Shown: one piece after another, positions 1 to 39,996 of the stretch
How the letters are laid out: each line of letters opens with the position of its first letter
Position numbering within the stretch: the first letter of the stretch is position 1
Source: Trichosporon coremiiforme
Taxonomy: Eukaryota > Basidiomycota > Tremellomycetes > Trichosporonales > Trichosporonaceae
Direction of reading: 5' to 3'
Length of the DNA: 64,000 nucleotides
NCBI GenBank assembly: GCA_039545355.1
Contig: BCJJ01000007.1
Span: 620,001 to 684,000 of the forward strand
Notes under the pieces: model-generated
Told to the model about the DNA's origin: nothing
Seen by the model: the letters and a program-made list of their open reading frames with translations, nothing else
Database searches by the model: none
Position numbers and translations under genes: made by a program

Positions 1-3000
1 GGGCGAACGGAATCCAAGGCCCTCGGTCCCCTCAGATGCAGATTGAGGCGCTCAGGTGCACACGAGGCGTGGAGGCGCCGAGGCGTGCTCCCAGATGTGA
101 ATGAATGCCGAAATCGCTCCGCAGCCGGGCCAACAGCGTCGCAGCGTCATCGTGTCTCGTCGCTGTCTCACTGCTCTCTACCGCTGTGAGTCGGCCGGGA
201 TCAGCTGGGTCAGCTGGGTGCCTCCGTATTCAGCAAAAAGAGGTTGCATTCCTCCGTACCCCCCTCATGGGCTGCTTGAAGGTTTTGGACAGAGAATGTC
301 TGTTTCGGGGGCCGCGACTAACGCTGGGAACGCGGGATGATGGGAACAAGCAGATGGAAGTAGCGCGCACGCTTGTCACACAAGGCGAGCGGATATCCTA
401 CTGGCCGTGCTGTCTGCAATGATGACGATAGGCTGCGGAGTGCGTTGAATGGCCGGGGTGCCTTCGTTCCTTGAGTGCCTGTAGAGTTGTTTATGCATGT
501 GCCTAGGCCTTTGCTTCCATGCCGCGCCCCACGACGCGAAAGTGAGTAACTTGCGTGCGACGCTCGACGCTCAACGGACCTTGCAAGAGAGGGGGAGTGG
601 GCACTGGCCGCAATCGCATTCGTCCACGCACCTGCGGAGCAAGCGCCAGATGGTGCTGGGCAGTGGCTCGGCTTACATCATGCGATAAGTCGGCGACTAG
701 TTAGCGATAGTCAGGGAGGACCTCAAAAAAGTTAGATTTGGCCCCGCTCACCACCGTCGCAAACCCTCGAGTCCCACTTGAATCAGCCAAGCGGGGCAGA
801 AAGCACCCCATTTCAGAACTTCGCATGCTTCGTAATAGAGCGCCTTGAATGCGTGTATACTGGCTTGCTGACACCGACGGCGGGTATTGAGTCGCGCCTA
901 TTCCTGGCCACGATGTTTGCGTGGAGCGGTCAGATTCTGCCGAGAACTCGCCGAAAGCAGTAGCTGGGCGCAGACGTTAGTTCGGCGGCGTGGGACGCGC
1001 AGTCCGTCGAGAGATTGAGATCCAAGCCCAGATCCATAGTTGGCGTCGGGGAAACCAATCTCTGAGTCCTCAGATCGGTGGAAAGCGGTGCGCAGTGCTG
1101 CGAAGGTAGCAACACTTCTTCTACCGTGTCTAAGGTGGACATGTGGCCCACGCTGTCTCGCAGTCTGTCTCAGCGTTCCCGTTTGCGATCGCCGATGAAG
1201 CCGGGAAACAGATCAAAGCACGCTAAGAGCGTCCAGACCACGAAGGGTAACATGGAGGTAGACCGGGCCTTACCCGTCCAGCCAATTTTCGATTCGAACG
1301 CCGACACAAGGTCTCGCTTTTTGCCTGCCCGCATACCTGCATGACTGCATGGCTGCACCTCGTCAATGCCCGTCCCGTGGCGTCCGGGACAGCGGGTGAG
1401 TCGGCGTATTCGTGTCGGACTAGGTTTGCCGGCTGAGTCGGGGTTTCTATACCTCCTTGGTATGCCGCTGCTCGGCTGTCGCTGCCCGGCCGTCACTGTT
1501 CCAGGTGTTATGGCCGCAGTGCGACCGCTGTGGCTTACGGTGCAGAGGCCGACAAACTTTGTCCTCGTGGAGGGAAGTGGTGGTCACGTGCAGATGGTCG
1601 ATGGCGAGGTCAGCTTGCAGAACTCCGTATCAGATAGCAAGTGTCGACAGAGCATGCTCCGATGTCGTGGAGCCATGTTCTCGACACTCTGGGTTTGGTT
1701 GCGACGAGGACAGAGTGGAGTGGCGAGTGAGGCGAGGTAACGAGGCGTGGAGGGCGACCTGAGTGGCAGACTGGGAGAGACAAATCGTGATCCGGAGGCT
1801 CCCTCAGACTACTCTGCTCGAGAGTGACCGACATCTTGGAACTCCAGTCGATAGATAAGATATCACGATCTCTCCAGCTCTTGCGACGCGTCGGTCTCAG
1901 TTACTCAACTCCGAAGCGCGAGGAACAAGAGGAACCCGGTCGAGGCATGTCGGGTTCGGTTGACGCTTCGGTCAATCCCAGAGATGCCTTGGGTATCCTG
2001 TTGGAGCTAGGAGGCTCGTAGCGACAAGCGGACGACGACGACGAGCGAAGCAGAGGGCTGGCGGCAGTTGTTCGCGGTGGCTCGTGGTTCGCATGTGGCA
2101 AAGCCAGAGCCAAACTCTTCGGATCTCCGAACCACATTGAGGCAACCCGCGTGGGGCCATGTGACCTCGACTGTCAAGAGCCCGAGCGCACGCCCGACCT
2201 CGTCGACATGCTGGATCCGCTGGGTCTGTCGCTGAGTTCACTCCAGCAGAATGCTCAGGCCACTCGCGGGCCATGGCGAGAGGGAACGAGCAATACCCCG
2301 GTTACAGGGGGTCAATTCCGCCTCGTTCGCTTCGATAGCTTGCCGGCGTGGCCGGTGGCCCTCTGGCGCCATTCCCCTCATGTAACGGTGCTGTTTCGAG
2401 TCAATCACACTGTCTAGCAGTCTTTTCGGGTGCGCCACGGGATTCCAGACTCGAGGAATAATTCGCCTAGCCGTGCGCGGCTGCGGGGAGGGCATACCGG
2501 ATCGAGGGTGTGGCGATCGTGCCGTTGCGGGTATCGAGAAGTCGTCGTCATCCGATCGTTTCTGGCAGAGAACGGCGTCGACCCCAACAACGCAGGAGAG
2601 ACGGGGAAGAAGCAGCGTGAAGGTGTTGCGACGCTCGAGCGGGGGTGAAGGCGGGGAAGGCGGGGAAGGCGGCGAGGCGATGCCGACCACAGTCGCCATT
2701 CACAACTCGTCACAGCCTCACGTCCCGACTACCATCCAGCACCCAAGACCGTTTGCCCTAACTTTCAAACTTTTGCTGAATCGTGTCGCCCATTGACTAC
2801 TGGGAGGTGAAGCCGGTGGCGAAAGGAGAGGAAGAACCGTCCTCTGTCGTGTGTGTCGATATGCTTCCATGGACTCGAGTCTGTAGTGAGCTCCACTCAT
2901 CCGCTCGTGAAGAGAAAGAAAGAAAACCGCCAAGTCGCGATATATAAAGGAACTGTAAAGAGGAAGATGGCGAACAGAACTAGCAGATAAGCAGCAATGT

Positions 3001-3859
3001 AACGATCTCATCTCGCACCGTTACGATGGCGCTGGCGCGCATGGCCGATGGCGCAGGCGTGACGACTTTCCATGTGCGTGATGATTGACTAACGGTTCCG
3101 GAACACTGGCCCAGTGCCCCCTTTGTTTCAGATGAGGCGTCGCGTGACCATTACTCTGCCCTCCCCTTTGTCCCAGAACACCACGGGCACTGCTGCCCTT
3201 TCTATGCTCTTGTAACTCACTCGTTCAGCTGCGCGGGGGCATGCCGCAGTGAGCTCTGCGCTGACCGCGCGAGGGTGTAGCTATGTGGTTCGATGCGACG
3301 TGTTCACACCAGGTGAACCAGTTCGGGCTACCCAGTCATGGCCCGTTACGAGACAAGTCATGTCATCTCATGTCATCTCATGTCATCTCATGACATTGTC
3401 ATGTATCCCCCGCCTCGTGAGATGAGCTGCTGCGGGCCGTGGCGTTCATGGCGTCGGCGTGACGGCCAACCTACAGACCTCTCGCTCCCTACGCCACCTC
3501 CCCCGCACCTGGCACTCACTTCACTCTCGCTCGCCACCTACGACTCCCCGCAGCTCACTCTGCTCGCTCCCATGAGACACCAGAAAACCCCGTGATACTG
3601 CATGCTAACGTCTAAGACAGAAGAAATAGAGAAAAAGGTGTACAACCGTTGTTGGTGGTGGCCAGAGGCTGGGCTAGTGTGAGGCCGATGGGTGCGTGAA
3701 CAGAATCTGTATGAGGAGACAAGAGAAAGAATGCGTGCTTGGCTTGTTGTTTTTGCGTTCGTGCGTGCTTGCGTGCGGTTTGCTTGCCGCGCTGTGGGGT
3801 ACATGAACGGAGGGACGGAGGGCAGGGTGAACTGAGGAGAGTGCAGAGCAACAGCAGGA
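1..3859. other. Gene-free stretch, no supported gene
   Basis: I find no reading frame here with a recognisable domain, convincing splice junctions or the strong third-position GC bias of the genes further on. Open frames are short and overlap on both strands. The stretch holds a small GGCGGGGAA-type repeat near 2,648-2,672 and a 10-bp repeat near 3,360. A TATATAAAG string near 2,940 has no gene placed to use it. The last 250 bases are probably the 3' untranslated and terminator region of the minus-strand gene that ends at 3,860. A fast-evolving or non-coding gene cannot be excluded. Confidence 0.5.
3358..3393. repeat. 10-bp tandem repeat (TGTCATCTCA)
   Basis: Three perfect tandem copies of TGTCATCTCA lie at 3,361-3,390, with partial flanking copies on both sides. 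No reading frame that I support uses it. It looks like a simple intergenic microrepeat. Confidence 0.85.
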
Positions 3860-32000: not shown

Positions 32001-34096
32001 ATGTCGTATGACCCTTCCGCTCAGCAACGGTACGCCCCCGTCCAAGGCTACAGCCAGCCCGGGCGCGATCAGCCTGGTTCTTACGAGGAGAAAGCCGGCC
32101 TCACGGGCGCAGGCGGCGAATCCTATCGTGAGTCCTTTGCACTTGTTATTGTCTTGGGTCCAGGCCGATTACCCTCGATTACCCTCTTTTCGTTACTCTA
32201 TCCGAAATTGTGGGACTCCAAGCACAACTCTAGCCCCGAACCTTGCACCGCCCGCAGTGCTTGGCCCTCTAGCGGCTCTCTGGACCCTTCGGCGCCCGCC
32301 TCCGTCGGCTTGGCTGTCCGACACAAGACGCCGCTGCGGACCGGCCGTGCTCTTGGCCGTTTGAGGATGAAAGGGAGCATGCCATGCGCCCAGAAGTCTC
32401 CATGTGTCCTGACAGGCAGACATTCGGGCGCTCGTTGGACCAGAATGCTGTGCTGGAGGGAGAGGTCTATGCTCGTGGCGCTGGAACGTCCTTAAGATTC
32501 CTGCGGGGTACCGAGGGAATCGTCTTGAGACCCAATCTGATCCTCTCGTGAGCGAACTTCGTCGGTGTCTGACCACTCAGCTATGACCAACGTCTTCGGC
32601 GGCAGCGGCAGCAGCACGCCGCGCGACCCTTTCCACGACCCGTCCCAGCAATCCCTCCTCTCAACACCCACTCGCCAGTACTCGAACTCGAACATGAGCG
32701 GCGTCGGAGCTGCGGCTGGAATGGGAGCAGGAGCCGGAGCGATGGCCTACGGTGCCGGAGGAGACCACGGATTCAGCGGCGCCGCCTCGCAGCCGTCATA
32801 CAACGCTGCCGCGATGGCGCATGACAACGTGCCGTCTGACCAGCTCTGGGCGATGGACAACGGAGACCACAGCTACCGCGGATACGATGAGTCTGGGCAC
32901 GTCGCCGAGAAGGCGAGCAGCGGCAAGAAGAAGTGGATCATCATCGGCTCGATTCTGCTGCTTGCTGCGATCATCGTCGGTGTCGTTGTCGGTGTCGTCG
33001 TGTCGAAGCAAAACAGCAGCAGCAGCAACAGCGGCTCGAGCAAGAGCGGTGACAGCAAGAGCGGCGGCAAGGACAGCGCGTCGCCCAACTTTGAGAAGGA
33101 CCCGGCGCTCCACCAGGTTTTCTGGGGCATGGCTTACGCCCCCGCCGACGGACGGCCGCCCTGGTGTGCGAACACGCAGGAGGCGGTGAACAAAGACATC
33201 CAGATCCTGTCCCAGCTGACGACCCGTCTGCGTCTGTACGGTGCCAACTGCGGTGTCACGCAGCAGGTTCTCAAGGCGATCAAGGATCTCAAGGTTGACA
33301 TGAAGATCTACCCCGCGATCTGTAAGCTGGTCCCGTCCCTGCTTGAAGCTAACATCCAGACCTTGACTCGTCAGAGACGAACCAGCAGTACTACGACTGG
33401 CAGGTGGGCAACATCTCCGAGGCGATCACGGAGTACGGACCGGACAACATTGAGGGCATCGCCGTCGGCAACGAGTACCTGCTCATCATGATGACCGAGG
33501 CTGGCGAGTCGCAGCCCTCTGGACCGACGTACACCAAATTCGTGAAGCAGCTGTCGAGCTACGTGCAGGACTTCAAGAAGACGCTGAAGGGCTGGAACGT
33601 TGGCAAGGACATTCCCGTCGGCACTGGTGACGCCGGATCGATGATGTCGACTGAGCTCGGCAACGTCGTCGATTACTTCATGGCCAACGTGCACCCGTGG
33701 TTCGGCCTGAACACGCCCGTCGAGATGGCCGCCGGCTGGACCTGGGACTACTTCCAGAACAACGACGTCGCGTTTGCGGAGAAGAGCTCGCCCGTGCCCG
33801 AGACGTTCATCGCCGAGACTGGCTGGCCTACCAAGTCAATGGACAAGGAGCACGAGACCAACATGGACAAGGGCATGGCGTCGCAGGCCACAAAGGGCAA
33901 CTACGCCAGCGAGGAGAACCTCCAGACCTTCCTCGACACGTACGTGTGCCAAGCGAACGCGAACGGCACCAAGTACTTCTACTTTGAGCCCTTTGACGAG
34001 CCCTGGAAGGAGCAGTACGGCGGTGTTGAGCCGTACTGGGGTCTTTTCGACCACGATCGCAACCTCAAGAACATCAAGATCCCTACCTGCGATTAG
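32001..34096 (+). CDS. GH17 glucan endo-1,3-beta-glucosidase, type II membrane protein
   Basis: Three exons (32001-32127, 32581-33321, 33360-34096) give 534 aa. Residues 1-155 are a Gly/Ala/Ser-rich cytoplasmic segment. A single transmembrane helix follows at about 160-183 (WIIIGSILLLAAIIVGVVVG), then a Ser-rich stalk and a GH17 domain. The general acid is the Glu in GIAVGNEYLL near 328 and the nucleophile the Glu in FIAETGWPTKS near 442. The layout resembles fungal BtgC/EglC-type enzymes that cleave and remodel cell-wall beta-1,3-glucan outside the plasma membrane. The first intron is 453 nt. The second is 38 nt (GTAAGCT to AGCTAACATCCAG), and that acceptor, not the next CAG, keeps the family sequence AIYLDSSETNQQYY intact. 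Confidence 0.92.
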
Positions 34097-34640
34097 GAGG
34101 ATCCTCTTTGCTCTTCTCTTCGCCCCTCGTATCCTCATCTCGCATCCCCCGCAGTGACTCTCTCACTCCCCACCTCAACTCTCTCAACCTCTCACACCAT
34201 GGACAATACAGCTTTTCTCACCTTTCTCCCGTTCATAGACTTGTCATTTTCACGCTCACGAAACTCTCATCGTCCGTATATCCCCGGGCGCGCGCGCCGC
34301 ACATTGTGCGCCAGCCCACCTTTGTACTTTGTTCTTTTATGTGATGGACAGTTTGGCCGCGTGTGGTTCTGTTGCGAGTTGAATACGGCATACGAGACCT
34401 CTGTAGTGTGATACTGAGGAGGAACAACTGCGGAAGGCTGCAGCCAACAACTCACCTTATCTGCTGACCAGGAGGGCGCATAGATCTGGGGACGATCAGA
34501 CTAACCGCGTGGCGGCCGCTGCGGGTGTCAGGAGGTGACTCGACACAGCACAGTTGCTTCCTCGTCATCAGCTTCACACCTCAACCTCTTCCCAAGCGTT
34601 TCGCTATGCCTCCGCTGCTTCGCACTTCCCCGTACGCGGC
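34097..34640. other. Intergenic between GH17 gene and the intron-dense locus
   Basis: This holds the GH17 3' untranslated region. Near 34,450-34,470 a CTGCTGACCAG string looks like a lone intron acceptor, so an upstream non-coding exon of the intron-dense locus may lie here. No reading frame is supported. Confidence 0.45.
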
Positions 34641-37600
34641 ATGGCTCCTGTACCGATTGAGAGAGTGACTGGTTCGAGGTATGCTGTGCGATTGAACGTG
34701 CCAGCTGACGGCATAGATTCCTCGCCACCCGCCCGCCTGGACGACACGGGGAGCTTAACCGGTGGCCGGACGACCTGACTCCAAGCGTCCCCAGGCTCGG
34801 GCTAGCTAGCTCTCGCCATGCTATTGGTGAACTGGTCTGTTGTTGCGGACAGAGAGCTGACGACAGGTCTTCCTCGCCACTCGCCACTTGCCCTGAGGAC
34901 GACACGGTGAGCTTCCTCTTTCGCGAAGTTAGCTTACTCCAGATCGAGGTAAGCTGAACCAGACCCTCTGAGCTGATAGCAGCCCAATGTAAGCTTGGTT
35001 ACGGATGAGGGGCTGACAGCAGCTCCCCCATTGCCTGTTGGCCTGTGACTGCGCTGGACGAGTGCGCTGGACGTGTGCGCTGGACGCGTGCGCTGGACGT
35101 GTGCGCTGGACGTGTGCGCTGAACGTGTGGAAAGGATGGCGTGAGCTGCGTGAGTGGAGGTGCCAGCTGATCTCAGACCCCTCCCCACGACAATGAAGAC
35201 GTCTCCCTCGGTTCCCAAAGAAGATGGAGAAAGTGAGCTTCCAGAACAATGGGGTCCAAGCTGATTCCAGTCAGTTCCAGTCTGGAGTCTGTTGTGGTCC
35301 TCGACAAGGCTGGGGTGAGCTGGTTCGCTACGACCTTCATTTTGACACGAGGGCAGTGCAACATCCAATCTTTTGGGTGGCGGTGAGCCAGATTCAGTGG
35401 GCCGTGAGCTGACATCGGGTCCCAGCGAACACCTCGGGCGGTGAGCTCAGGGGAGCACGCCGTAGCTGACTGCAGTGCTCAAGAGCAGACATAGGCGGTA
35501 AATAAGCTGCAGTTACTTCCATGAGCTGACGACAGGTGTGAAATCGGCCAGACATTGGGCTTTGGACGTGGCTACAATGTAAGCTTTATGCGCCTCTGGG
35601 TGAGCTGACTTCAGCCCCCCACCAGATGCCGGGGAAGCAATACGCTTCCTTGTCTCCTGCAAAAGCTGACCGCAGTGTGCCACGGCGAGGGGTGGCGATA
35701 TGTGAGCTCCAGTTCTGGGTTGAGCTGACGACAGACTGTCTGAGATTCCGATTCCGTGTTATCTGATACCAGGCCCGGGCTGCTCGAGCGCTGGACAAGG
35801 CAAGCTAATTTTCGGGTTTCAAAAGCTGACAGCAGACCTCGGCAGGGGAGGACGGCACTCACAAGCGTGGGGTTGCGTTGTGGCGGGATTGTGTAACTGA
35901 TGACAGTCTGAGGGAAGCTAGGGACGACGCTGAGTTGAGTGAGTTGCTTGATTGGTAGATTTACAGCTGACCCCAGGCGCATCTGGTAGGGGGGTCTGCC
36001 TCGCCCGGGCGAGTGCGTGCGTCTAGCTTCTGGAAGCCCCTCCTTCCTGAAAGCAATACATCCCGTCTGTGAGGCCGCGATGCGGCCGAGTCACAAGACT
36101 GCAGCTCATAGAGTTGAGGGAGTGCATTTTGGAAGTGTAGCAATAGAGTAGGTCAGACGCCACTCCACTCAGAGCAAGACATTACTCCCAATTGTCCTTT
36201 GCGTGACACCTATCACTCTCGAACGAGCCTCTTCGGTCGACTACGGCACAGCTTGGAATGTGAGCTCGAAGGTTTCGCACACAAGCTGACTTTACAGCAA
36301 GCCTGGAGGTTATCTTCAAAATGGCTTCTCCTTTAGCTGACCGCAGGCCTCCCTCGCCGCACTGCTGTTTGCACGTAAGCTGCAGTCTGACTCTACCAAG
36401 CTGATGACAGTTCCTAGTGAGATTGGCAAGGGAAACAAAACTTCAGCACTATCTCGTTGTCGCAAGTCGCTACTCGCCAGAGTAGGACCAGACCGAAGAC
36501 AAAAGGATATGTAAGGCGTGATCGACAATTCTGTGCTGACTTCAGGCACCTCTCGCTACATCTTAAGTTCAGCCGTGAGTAAGTATCAATTGAGTATGCT
36601 GAATGGCGCCGCAGGTTAGCTGGCATGCGCAATGGGAGATTACAGAAAGGATGACGTGAGCTAAGACGTGATATCGCTGCTGAGCTGTTGACAGTCCGTT
36701 GTTCGGTGAGCTAATGACACAGGATTGAGAGCTGATCTCAATCTCGTTGTTCGCAACACTGCGGCAACATCGACGCAGAGAGGAGAGCTGTTGTCAGCCC
36801 GTTCTAAGCTCAGAGCAGTCCGTTCGCCGGAAGGCGAATCCCCGTAGGAAGCTCGCATCGCGACGACGCCGTGGCAGCTCACTTTCGAGGGCAGTGGAAG
36901 CGACTCGGCGGAGTGCGATGGACGGTCTGTCGAAATCTGGCCACAGTCCTGGTCGTGAGCTGACCTGATCTCATGACGAGCTGACCTCCAGTTTCGAACT
37001 GGCTGGGCGTCGAGTGTTAGCTTCACTTTCCTCAGACGAGCTGACACAAGCGCCACTGAGGTGCACCCAGCACAGACCGGACGGTAAACTGTGAAATACG
37101 TCTTGGTGCCCTTGAGCTGACTGAAGACTGGAGCTGGTGATCTCCCGGCCCCGAGTTGGTGAGCTTCGGCAGTCCTACTTGAGCTTCAGGACGGCGATGG
37201 CTCAGCTGACTCGAGCGGAATACACCCAAAAACCTCTGTCGGGCGTGGAAGGCGATTATTCCGCGCAGGATATGCGAGCTGCGCCGATATTGCATGACTG
37301 AGCTGATCGAAGTGCCGCCCGCAGGTTGCGCAGGTAGATATGGATCGGATGATGTTGGCCGTTGTGTTGCGTTCACACCAGACCTGCTGCCGACGAGGGA
37401 CGATAGCTCCAGGCCAAAGCCGCACCCGTCCTGCCAAGCAGACCGTCACCGAAACCGGCGACTGCACCACCGAATCCGCGTGCACGGTCAGAGTGGGCTT
37501 GCCCGACCTGTGAGCTGTTCCGCGATCTCCCGAGCTGATAGCAGCCTCCTGCACCCTTCGGTCAGAGTTGAACACGGTGAGCTCCAGCCATGTCTTCTAG

Positions 37601-37651
37601 CTGACAACAGACGTCTCCTCGCTCGGCTCTCATGTCAAGGACGGTCACTAG
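34641..37651 (+). CDS. Intron-dense microexon gene, unknown product
   Basis: Model: ATG at 34,641, stop TAG at 37,649-37,651, about 36 exons and 552 aa. Exons include 34641-34678, 34717-34826, 34867-34906, 34943-34948 (6 nt), 34983-34988 (6 nt), 35023-35098, 35135-35140 (6 nt), 35177-35232, 35271-35314, 35357-35382, 35426-35440, 35476-35497, 35536-35578. Introns are mostly 33-43 nt, with donors like GTGAGCT or GTAAGCT and acceptors like AGCTGACnnCAG. The frame stays open through these 13 exons with almost no freedom of choice. Further on, joins at 35637, 35800 and 37274 need GC donors, and the part after 36,575 is less certain. The product is Arg/Ser-rich, has no signal peptide, membrane helix or known domain, and resembles an orphan protein. 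A multiply spliced non-coding RNA is the main alternative. Confidence 0.55.
35051..35128. repeat. 13-bp tandem repeat, six copies
   Basis: Six tandem units of GCGCTGGACGNGT lie in the intron-dense gene; the last has GAACG in place of GGACG. In my model the first units are exon sequence and the last units form most of intron 35099-35134. There one GTGTGC serves as donor and GCTGAAC as branch site. Confidence 0.9.
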
Positions 37652-38857
37652 AATCTTATCCATTGGCGGTGCGTCAGTGGGGAGCACGAGTTCGAGTTCC
37701 TGAGTACCGGTCTAGCCGTCTATGCCTAAGCTTATCAGTCGACGGGCAGAAAGCAGAAAGCCAGTCGAGACGGCCAAGGGCCACGTAACCGCAGAAGGTC
37801 CCCGCTGTGAGAGGTGTTGACAGATGCCGTGGCCTTGTGGCAGGCTACCGATCTTGGAATGAGGTAGTCAGAGATGGCACATGACAAGAGTCGCCGCTTG
37901 TATAAACCCCGGACCAAGGTCAAGAAGCGGCGCGTCATACCCCATTGCGTCCGAAGTCCTGGGACGCCGCGTCGGAGTGGGGATGCGGCGTCGACATCGT
38001 CCGCCGGCATACCCCTCATCCTCTGCCAATTCTGTCCTTCGGCCAGGGCGCATGATGCCACCGTACATCTCGGCCGTCCTCTGAGAGGCGACATCAAGCG
38101 CGTCCCCCGGCACGTCCATCAGCGTCCCACTGAGTACGTCGCGGTCCCACTCTCCATAGTTTGACGCGTTTCGTGTCATGAGACGCAAGTGCGCAAGATC
38201 TGGTGATGAATTAGGAAGCCAGTAGTTAGGCCGCTCCACGCGAGATTACCCCAATTGATTACCCCAAGTGCAAGTGCAAGTGAAGAACGTGACGAACGTG
38301 CCTACTTCCCACCACAGCAGGATGGCCGCCTGACCTACCTCCACCGGGCGCTGGACGGATCAGCGGGCAGCGGCTTCCGAGGGATTTTACCGAGCCGCGC
38401 GCCGCTGCCGTGCAACTCCGGTCGATCCGGTCCACCACTTTCCAACATCGTTCCAGTCCGCAATGTGATGGCACGCCGCACTGGTAGAGTTCTATGCACA
38501 TCTGATCACGAGCACAAACAGCATGGAGCACCTGATGCAACTCTGGCGACGTCGCCCCCGAACTCGGCAGTGGCTTGCGTCATACATCTTACATCCCGGC
38601 ACGGGCGGGCTTGGCACTAGCGGATTCCGCGGCGTCCACTGTTTTTCTGTTCGAGGGCGCGATTCTTCAACCCTCGACCGTTGTCAGTTCTAAGCTTCCA
38701 GGAGTGTCCAGTGCAGCTGCATAGTGTGATGGCTAACAAATGCGTACGTGGTCGTGCATATCCCAAAGACAAGAATGATACTAAGCTAGGGCCTGTTTTT
38801 GGGTGGAGGGTTGCCGTCAAAACCTTCGGCTTTGACAGCGAGTCGGGGTCGTCTATC
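37652..38857. other. Intergenic, nothing recognised
   Basis: The repeated intron-like signals stop at about 37,610. Beyond that I see no gene up to the stop codon of the minus-strand phosphate carrier. Short frames on both strands lack features. Confidence 0.5.
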
Positions 38858-39996
38858 TTACTTGGGGACAGCGGCGATCTCGACACCGCCGGTGGCGTTG
38901 AGCATGCGCTTGATGTCGCCGTAGATAAGGAACTGGCCGGCGGTGAGGGTACCGATCATAACGAGACGGGCGCCCATACCGGTGAAGAGACCCTTGACAC
39001 CGAGCTGCTTGGACATCTCAATGAGACGCGAGGTGGTGGACTGGCCGGGGGCACCCTTAGTCTTGTTGATCTTGGAGAGGAGGGTGTCGGCGGGCTGCGA
39101 GATGACGGCAGCGGCCATACCGGCGATGAGACCGGCGCCGAGGTTGAGGCCAGTCTGCTCACCCTGGGTAAGCGAGGCCTTGGTGCGGCCGAGGGCGTGG
39201 AGGATCTTCTCGGAGGCAACCTCGAAGACGGCGAACTTGGCCATGGTGTAGGGGACCTGCTTGAACAGGATGGGGCCGAAACCGGCGTAGAAGCCGCCGA
39301 TACCCTCCTCACGGGCGATACGGAGGAAGCCAGAGGCGAGGCCGTTGGCGAACGAGGGCTGCGAGACGAGACGGATACGGGTGGCCTCGAGGGGGCAGAG
39401 GGCAATGTCGGCGAAGAACTCGGCGATACCAGAGGCACCGAGGTAGACGGCCTGACGGTGCTCAGAAGCGGTCTTGACACCGAGGTAGTCAATGGCCTGC
39501 TTCTTCCAGAACTCGTATCCACCGAACTTGAGGGCACCCTGGACGGCGTAACCGGCGACGGTGGGGCCGAGACCGGTGAGGAGGGCACCAGCACCCTCGT
39601 TCTTGACGATCTGGCGGAAGGCGTTGATCATACCCTTGTTGTAGACCTCGGGGTCAAGCTGGATACGGGTCTTGACGACATCGACGGGGGTAAGGGCACC
39701 GTGGGTGATGGCACAGCCGAGGGCACCGGCAAGGGCGAAACTGTAATGCTGTCAGCCAGCTGCATGCTTTGCTTGGATGTCTCTTGCTCTGCGTAACGAT
39801 TACCCTTCAAGTCAAGAAGAAGACTCCGCGACGGAGGGTTGTTTGCGTGTTTTTGCACACAATCGGTTTATCGCTGCTGAGCAAGAGAAAACTTGACGAC
39901 TTACCGGGCGTAGAGGTCGACACCGGTGGGGGTCTTCTTCTCCGAGACGGAGGAGGCGTAGAAGCCCTTAACCTGGGAAACCATAGCGGACGACAT
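38858..39996 (-). CDS. Mitochondrial phosphate carrier (Mir1/Pic2 family)
   Basis: Two exons (39905-39996, 38858-39740) give 324 aa, the usual size. Three mitochondrial-carrier repeats are visible, with signature PxD/ExxK/R motifs: [18 protein letters not shown] and QPADTLLSK. The segment [19 protein letters not shown] is typical of the phosphate carrier subgroup. The protein imports phosphate with protons across the inner mitochondrial membrane for ATP synthesis. Whether it is the Mir1 or Pic2 paralogue cannot be told here. The 164-nt intron is in phase (..LYAR|FALAG..) with a GTAAGT donor. Strong codon bias suggests high expression, and the coding strand leader is pyrimidine-rich (40,010-40,080). 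Confidence 0.95.

Follow-up and report, generated by a model that had tools for sequence, protein, structure and literature searches.

The window analysed here is a 64,000-nucleotide (nt) stretch of Trichosporon coremiiforme DNA (C7:620001-684000; the genome examined comprises 42.0 Mb in 134 contigs), and its subject is W, a plus-strand locus at window positions 34,641-37,651 that is tiled by very short introns. Throughout W, donors of the GTRAGCT type and acceptors of the AGCTGAYNNCAG type stand in close succession, as a preliminary description of this DNA had reported. A strict regular expression for mini-introns with these two types of signal finds 14 introns that start within 34,949-37,577, out of 19 on the window's entire plus strand. 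A splice model, trained on 43 introns from other genes, predicts 25 introns with a score of at least 8 in 34,363-37,900, far more than in dinucleotide shuffles (n = 200; mean 1.4, maximum 5) or on the antisense strand of the same interval (3 introns), and 30 introns with a score of at least 4 in 34,641-37,651. The intron tiling of W, as splice signals on one strand, is real. The predicted introns have a median length of 37 nt and many internal exons are unusually small, with a predicted median of 32 nt, 38% of them at 30 nt or less and two of only 6 nt, a size that the earlier reader had also given. Exon lengths modulo 3 are distributed 6/10/13, with all three residues present.

34641..37651, plus strand: W, in the bounds first given for it
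34943..34948, plus strand: 6-nt exon ATCGAG, flanked by predicted introns 34907-34942 and 34949-34982
34983..34988, plus strand: 6-nt exon CCCAAT, flanked by predicted introns 34949-34982 and 34989-35022
35233..35270, plus strand: strict mini-intron of 38 nt (this and the following by regular expression and splice parse; the first five are examples)
35441..35475, plus strand: strict mini-intron of 35 nt
35702..35734, plus strand: strict mini-intron of 33 nt
36260..36297, plus strand: strict mini-intron of 38 nt
36955..36991, plus strand: strict mini-intron of 37 nt
37510..37544, plus strand: strict mini-intron directly after a copied gene piece (described below)
37577..37610, plus strand: last strict mini-intron of W

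The claim that splicing yields a single open frame to a TAG at 37,649 was not borne out. With the splice model, the frame from the proposed ATG stays open to 36,025-36,116 at most, no parse is open past 36,116 even with candidate introns scoring down to -4, and the best penalised parse of W contains 4 stops. Shuffled exons reach equally far in 59 of 200 cases at a score of at least 4 and in 115 of 200 at a score of at least -4. The second half of the frame, which its proposer had already called weaker, rests on non-canonical joins of the reader's own choosing, since the splice model has no open parse past 36,116. The first part does stay open: 150 codons, ending at 35,540, can be read for 8 score units, although 7 of 60 splice-preserving shuffles do equally well or better. 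The best splice parse of W has a longest open reading frame (ORF) from ATG of 99 amino acids, which 96 of 200 shuffles match; a parse chosen for openness gives at least 150 codons.

The 150-amino-acid product has no relative at E ≤ 1 in a protein library that holds the Trichosporon asahii phosphate carrier, 99% identical to the one encoded in the window, and its Pfam search was empty, in agreement with the earlier remark that no domain is recognisable. The product ends just before a metzincin-like peptide, CEIGQTLGFGRGYN, that was spotted by eye at about 35,540. As far as the sequence goes, a coding reading of W is not supported. An orphan microexon gene, one of the two readings first offered, is at odds with the lack of a full-length frame, the exon lengths in all three residues, and the empty searches for relatives at E ≤ 1 and Pfam domains; the other, a spliced non-coding RNA, appears to be the better fit.

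Genomic position and sequence turnover

33404..34096, plus strand: protein of glycosyl hydrolase family 17 (GH17), the last large ORF, upstream of W; homeolog at C15:176414-177106 (90%)
34364..37831, no strand: stretch over W and the inversion breakpoint, no match on C15:95,001-205,000
38858..39631, minus strand: mitochondrial phosphate carrier, convergent neighbour; homeolog at C15:124849-125622 (96%)
C15, about 177.5-179.6 kb, plus strand: H, tiled, flanked upstream by the GH17 homeolog and downstream by a gene with an AAA match
C15, about 128.6-126.9 kb, minus strand: B, tiled, flanked by the carrier and by a gene whose product has a fungal transcription-factor domain
C7:602-604.6 kb, minus strand: X, a further tiled locus on C7

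The genes tested beside W, for the phosphate carrier and the GH17 protein, exist as two diverged copies, in both cases with the second copy on C15. The order is reported to include three known natural hybrids, and the subgenomes of T. coremiiforme are summarised as closest to T. asahii (PMC12820176, PMC6642101). From the diverged gene copies, the carrier protein 99% identical to that of T. asahii and the known hybrid subgenomes of the species, we infer that the genome consists of two subgenomes of a Trichosporon hybrid.

Window positions 1-34,363 align to C15:143,420-177,348 without a change of orientation, those at 38,285-64,000 align to C15:126,195-100,625 inverted, and W lies within the inversion breakpoint interval. 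On C15, both breakpoints carry tiled loci, H and B. With sensitive settings, 59,261 of the window's 64,000 bases find a match on C15:95,001-205,000, and W falls inside an unmatched stretch; ordinary intergenic DNA is thus alignable and W is not. Only one other unmatched stretch of at least 100 bp was found against that interval, at 2,111-3,371. In all, some 50 kb are inverted relative to their surroundings between the homeologous contigs (C7:602-658 kb, C15:126-180 kb; C7 was examined from 602 kb up), with tiled loci at or near the breakpoints, and the part of this segment inside the window (1-34,363) contains genes and can for the most part be aligned. As similarity between H and X continues past the last intron and up to where the X piece ends, the tiled loci may have the breakpoints at their upstream ends. 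The similarity of W to B, which bears on inversion by recombination between the breakpoint loci, is not above shuffles. In Cutaneotrichosporon, inversions are reported to be many and centromeric repeats not to be obvious (PMC10568926).

Signs of turnover were found within W itself.

34703..34756, plus strand: duplicated unit of acceptor, exon and donor, copy 1, with GGGAGCT in place of GTGAGCT at the donor position
34855..34914, plus strand: the same unit, copy 2, with donor GTGAGCT
35050..35129, plus strand: tandem array of the 13-bp unit TGCGCTGGACGTG, 6.2 copies
37413..37511, plus strand: copied piece of 99 bp, from C49:7663-7782 (minus strand, same sense)

The source gene on C49 encodes a WLM domain and a RanBP2-type zinc finger and for this reason is termed WSS1-like. 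The copied piece is 98.5% identical to it over two overlapping pieces, with a 21-bp tandem repeat one copy short. Its right end is a strict donor (T|GTGAGCT, the GT being common to the source) and its left end, CAG|GCC, is not a strict acceptor. Since homeologs are about 80-96% identical, the copy looks younger than the split of the subgenomes. Turnover is further supported by the duplicated exon unit with its dead donor and by the 13-bp array. Apart from this piece, no DNA relative of the WSS1-like gene is present in the genome, and W has no repeated copy there, its sole match being the same piece in sense orientation. W as a full copy of the WSS1-like gene was rejected: the DNA match covers only 99 bp, and the parse from the proposed ATG uses another frame.

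Tandem mini-intron loci elsewhere in the genome

A search for a microexon followed by an intron gave 198 matches genome-wide vs 4 in reversed controls, and two stricter tandem-intron patterns gave 71 and 38 matches (109 in total) vs none. Seventy-six of the 109 strict matches fall in 25 clusters of two or more, all one-stranded, where 1.4 clusters are expected. Four clusters are on C7, and two of the 24 besides W are a conserved Rad51-type gene, so that the class is a mixture of coding and apparently non-coding loci. Clusters that neighbour one another run in mixed orientations. The loci read in detail were W, H, B, X, Z, L035 and the Rad51-type pair. L035 was rejected as a tiled locus, as it holds ordinary intron-bearing genes, which means that not every cluster of consensus introns is one. 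Tiled loci carry 16-41 predicted introns each at a score of at least 8, with a median of 36-37 nt; the densest of them, Z, has no DNA relative in the genome.

C1:2,037.9-2,041.0 kb: Z, 41 introns at a score of at least 8
C4:1541501-1545500 (L039) and C2:506501-510500 (L040): homeologs of the Rad51-type gene, 18-20 predicted mini-introns
C12:422.6-426.5 kb, minus strand: further strong mini-intron/microexon cluster (this and the following from the pattern search)
C12:443.3-444.9 kb, plus strand: the same
C14:1058-1059 kb, minus strand: the same
C14:1128-1130 kb, plus strand: the same
C17:670.5-670.8 kb, minus strand: the same
C5:733.9-734.3 kb, minus strand: the same

The Rad51-type gene (PF08423; Rad51/DMC1 type) was used as a control. 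Comparison of its C4 and C2 homeologs shows equal length for 10 of 11 anchored coding exons and an identity of 92% in exons and 68% in intron interiors. In its tiled 3' untranslated part, splice signals are 93-94% and exons 79% identical, and two of three exon lengths differ between the homeologs. Non-coding mini-introns can therefore persist in this genome while exon sequence drifts. The introns after the stop codon could be linked to nonsense-mediated decay.

Colinear blocks are found in H and X by blastn (8e-15 and 9e-9). Within three blocks chosen for similarity, a gap-permissive alignment gives identities of 97% for donors, 87% for acceptors, 74% for exons and 67% for intron interiors, and four anchored exons measure 54/55, 26/25, 16/24 and 44/45 nt in the two loci. 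The suggestion that exon boundaries rather than residues are kept holds for these selected blocks and for the 3' untranslated part of the Rad51-type gene, but W shares only tiling and position with the other subgenome. Mean splice scores are 20.2 in X, 19.0 in H and 18.7 in Z, and 19.9 and 20.0 in the control gene. The palindrome AGCT was seen near both ends of the introns in the loci compared (donor GTGAGCT, branch region AGCTGAC), with a weak association between donor and branch site (97/122 vs 47/69).

The longest spliced ORFs in these loci have 113 amino acids in H (reached by 25 of 200 shuffles), 41 in B (192 of 200) and 74 in X (107 of 200). A full-length ORF search with the splice model left W, X and Z without an open parse, and the strictly open parses of H and B are not above shuffles: an equal or smaller deficit was seen in 14 of 35 open shuffles for H and in 22 of 35 for B. 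Between spliced counterparts, the best protein matches reach E values of 0.011 (H-X) and 0.042 (W-B), vs 8.6e-88 for the control gene.

What the tiled loci may be

We consider it slightly better than an even bet (about 0.55) that W is a one-stranded transcription unit whose RNA is heavily spliced, mostly non-coding and rapidly renewed, with splicing kept over exon sequence. This reading is based on a one-stranded excess of splice signals far beyond chance together with no long frame above chance, on the tiled loci at both C15 breakpoints and a W that cannot be aligned where the surrounding intergenic DNA still aligns, and on the copied gene fragment as an exon and the other one-stranded clusters of the tandem-intron pattern. 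W would then be transcribed and spliced, and selection would keep the act of splicing, in the sense of spliceosome loading on nascent RNA, rather than the exon sequence. The most likely use would be a spliceosome-laden transcript that works in cis or enters an RNA pathway dependent on splicing; as the genome has Argonaute and RNA-dependent RNA polymerase domains, one concrete candidate is a pathway similar to SCANR (spliceosome-coupled and nuclear RNA interference), in which poorly spliced transcripts give rise to small interfering RNA (siRNA).

Several results weigh against this reading. Z contains, at L036:1268-2136, a spliced ORF of 148 amino acids over 10 predicted introns that only 1 of 200 shuffles reaches, which counts against a purely non-coding class. 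In the ORF test, all five tiled loci rank low among their shuffles (9, 9, 14, 10 and 13 of 60), and the test is a weak one, in which the coding control itself gave 5/60 and 2/60. Use of the next AG downstream in X turns the 16/24 exon pair into 16/16, and three consecutive exons then total 96/96 nt, as would suit a frame. Over the full length of H and X only 5 introns correspond (shuffles: mean 4.1, maximum 7), so that intron-by-intron conservation is seen only in the blocks chosen for similarity. By local alignment score, six of the eight locus pairs tried, some of them not counterparts, beat every one of the 40 splice-kept shuffles: Z-X (1564 vs 1284 ± 48) is nearly as strong as H-X (1277 vs 1020 ± 41), and the positional pair W-B (784 vs 715 ± 39, maximum 817) is not above its shuffles. 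Because non-counterparts exceed shuffles, the shuffles miss something common to the tiled loci and the kinship of H and X leans mainly on the blastn blocks; this, and the five ORF tests that lean low, reduced our confidence slightly and made a protein gene slightly more likely. The mean splice scores of W (17.2) and B (15.7) are also below those of the control gene.

The Z frame, the low-side ORF deficits, the equal total that three H-X exons can be given, the open first 150 codons of W and its many tiny exons would all be in keeping with a fast-evolving, lineage-specific microexon protein gene whose structure outlasts its protein sequence, as in the bicycle genes of aphids. We regard such a gene as unlikely, though it deserves to be taken seriously, since W has no full-length frame and its reach is not above shuffles, its exon lengths fall in all residues modulo 3 whereas internal bicycle exons are described as nearly all phase 2 (PMC9168663), the protein matches between spliced counterparts are far from that of the control, and the 150-amino-acid product has no database relative. 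Another possibility, which we hold to be quite unlikely, is that W is primarily a source of siRNA, in which introns of mixed quality stall spliceosomes, RNA-dependent RNA polymerase (RdRP) and Argonaute make small RNAs in a SCANR-like manner, and sequence turns over fast at a stable position. SCANR is reported to target inefficiently spliced Cryptococcus transcripts (PMC5851062), and an intron in a centromeric non-coding RNA to promote RNA interference (RNAi) heterochromatin in fission yeast (PMC5322907). At the domain level, both Argonaute (PF02171) and RdRP (PF05183) are present in the genome, which makes such a route possible for W. PIWI domains of Argonaute lie at C14:735647, C3:433798, C5:190795-191778 and C17:167605-168592, apparently as two homeologous pairs, and RdRP domains on C11, C23, C1, C3 and C32. 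A dead donor beside strong sites, the single strand, the stable position with lost alignability and the copied gene fragment would suit this explanation, but W has no repeated copy in the genome, which disfavours a role in transposon defence, its only match is the sense WSS1-like piece, and W has no orphan acceptors outside predicted introns.

W as what remains of an intron-rich gene in decay, now without function, would agree with the dead donor in the duplicated exon unit, the lower splice scores of W and B and the lack of a long frame. It is improbable, as X, H and Z score close to the conserved gene, one-stranded clusters are many across the genome, and neutral decay should have erased the splice signals, given that the tiled loci lost alignability while other intergenic DNA around W kept it. 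A host gene for small nucleolar RNAs (snoRNAs) or other small structured RNAs would be in keeping with fungal snoRNAs, which are often found within introns or exons of host transcripts (PMC3596301). We give it very little credence: the similarity of W to B is not above shuffles, and no tiled locus has an Rfam match above the gathering score (W has none at E ≤ 1, L047 and H have none, and L036 and B have one weak match each). Introns of about 36 nt are also too short for a box C/D snoRNA. Centromeric non-coding RNA was rejected, as there are 25 clusters, four of them on C7, and the part of the inverted segment that lies in the window bears genes, in contrast to repeats around a gene-poor core once per chromosome.

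We found no description of mini-intron-tiled loci of this kind in the literature, judged from titles and the openings of abstracts. The closest known systems differ from them in part. Cryptococcus neoformans, a related basidiomycete yeast, is reported to have 1,197 loci for miscellaneous RNAs (miscRNAs), 765 of them with spliced introns and 1,434 introns in all, a miscRNA being defined as a transcribed region of more than 100 bp with no ORF or a small one (<100 amino acids) without database match (PMC3990503). The miscRNAs are intron-bearing units without obvious coding capacity, as the tiled loci would be, but they have about 1.2 introns each (1,434/1,197) against 16-41 predicted introns per tiled locus, Cryptococcus introns average 65 nt (PMC5851062) against a median of 36-37 nt, and lost alignability with retained tiling is not described for miscRNAs in the part of that report cited here. 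Bicycle genes similarly have many microexons and keep structure more than sequence (PMC9168663); unlike W, for which a full-length frame is unsupported, they have coding exons. SCANR targets (PMC5851062) and the dg/dh non-coding RNA of fission yeast (PMC5322907) resemble W in that the splicing signals themselves may be the functional feature, but these are transposon-related transcripts or centromeric repeats, whereas W has no repeated copy and lies between ordinary genes. Within the genome itself, the Rad51-type gene has the intron class in common with W, in its coding microexons as well as in its tiled 3' untranslated part, but its coding part is conserved and frame-preserving.

Returning to W as a mostly non-coding, heavily spliced unit, the tiled loci could belong to a class whose conserved product is splicing itself: one-stranded loci of unique sequence with 16-40 mini-introns, positionally kept between genes across the two subgenomes, with exons renewed faster than intergenic DNA, including by the copying of gene fragments, under an intron tiling that persists, that act as spliceosome-loading or splicing-triggered small-RNA loci. 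In this full form the proposal is speculative, and we think it unlikely as it stands. PIWI-interacting RNA clusters are likewise fast-evolving but positionally stable, and the proposed class would be their fungal counterpart. The tiled loci would be an extreme natural case in which intron density is retained and exon sequence is not, and the hybrid genome offers built-in counterparts in which selection on splicing may be told apart from that on sequence. Should small RNAs arise from the tiled loci, spliceosome engagement would be tied to genome-encoded sources of RNAi outside transposons.
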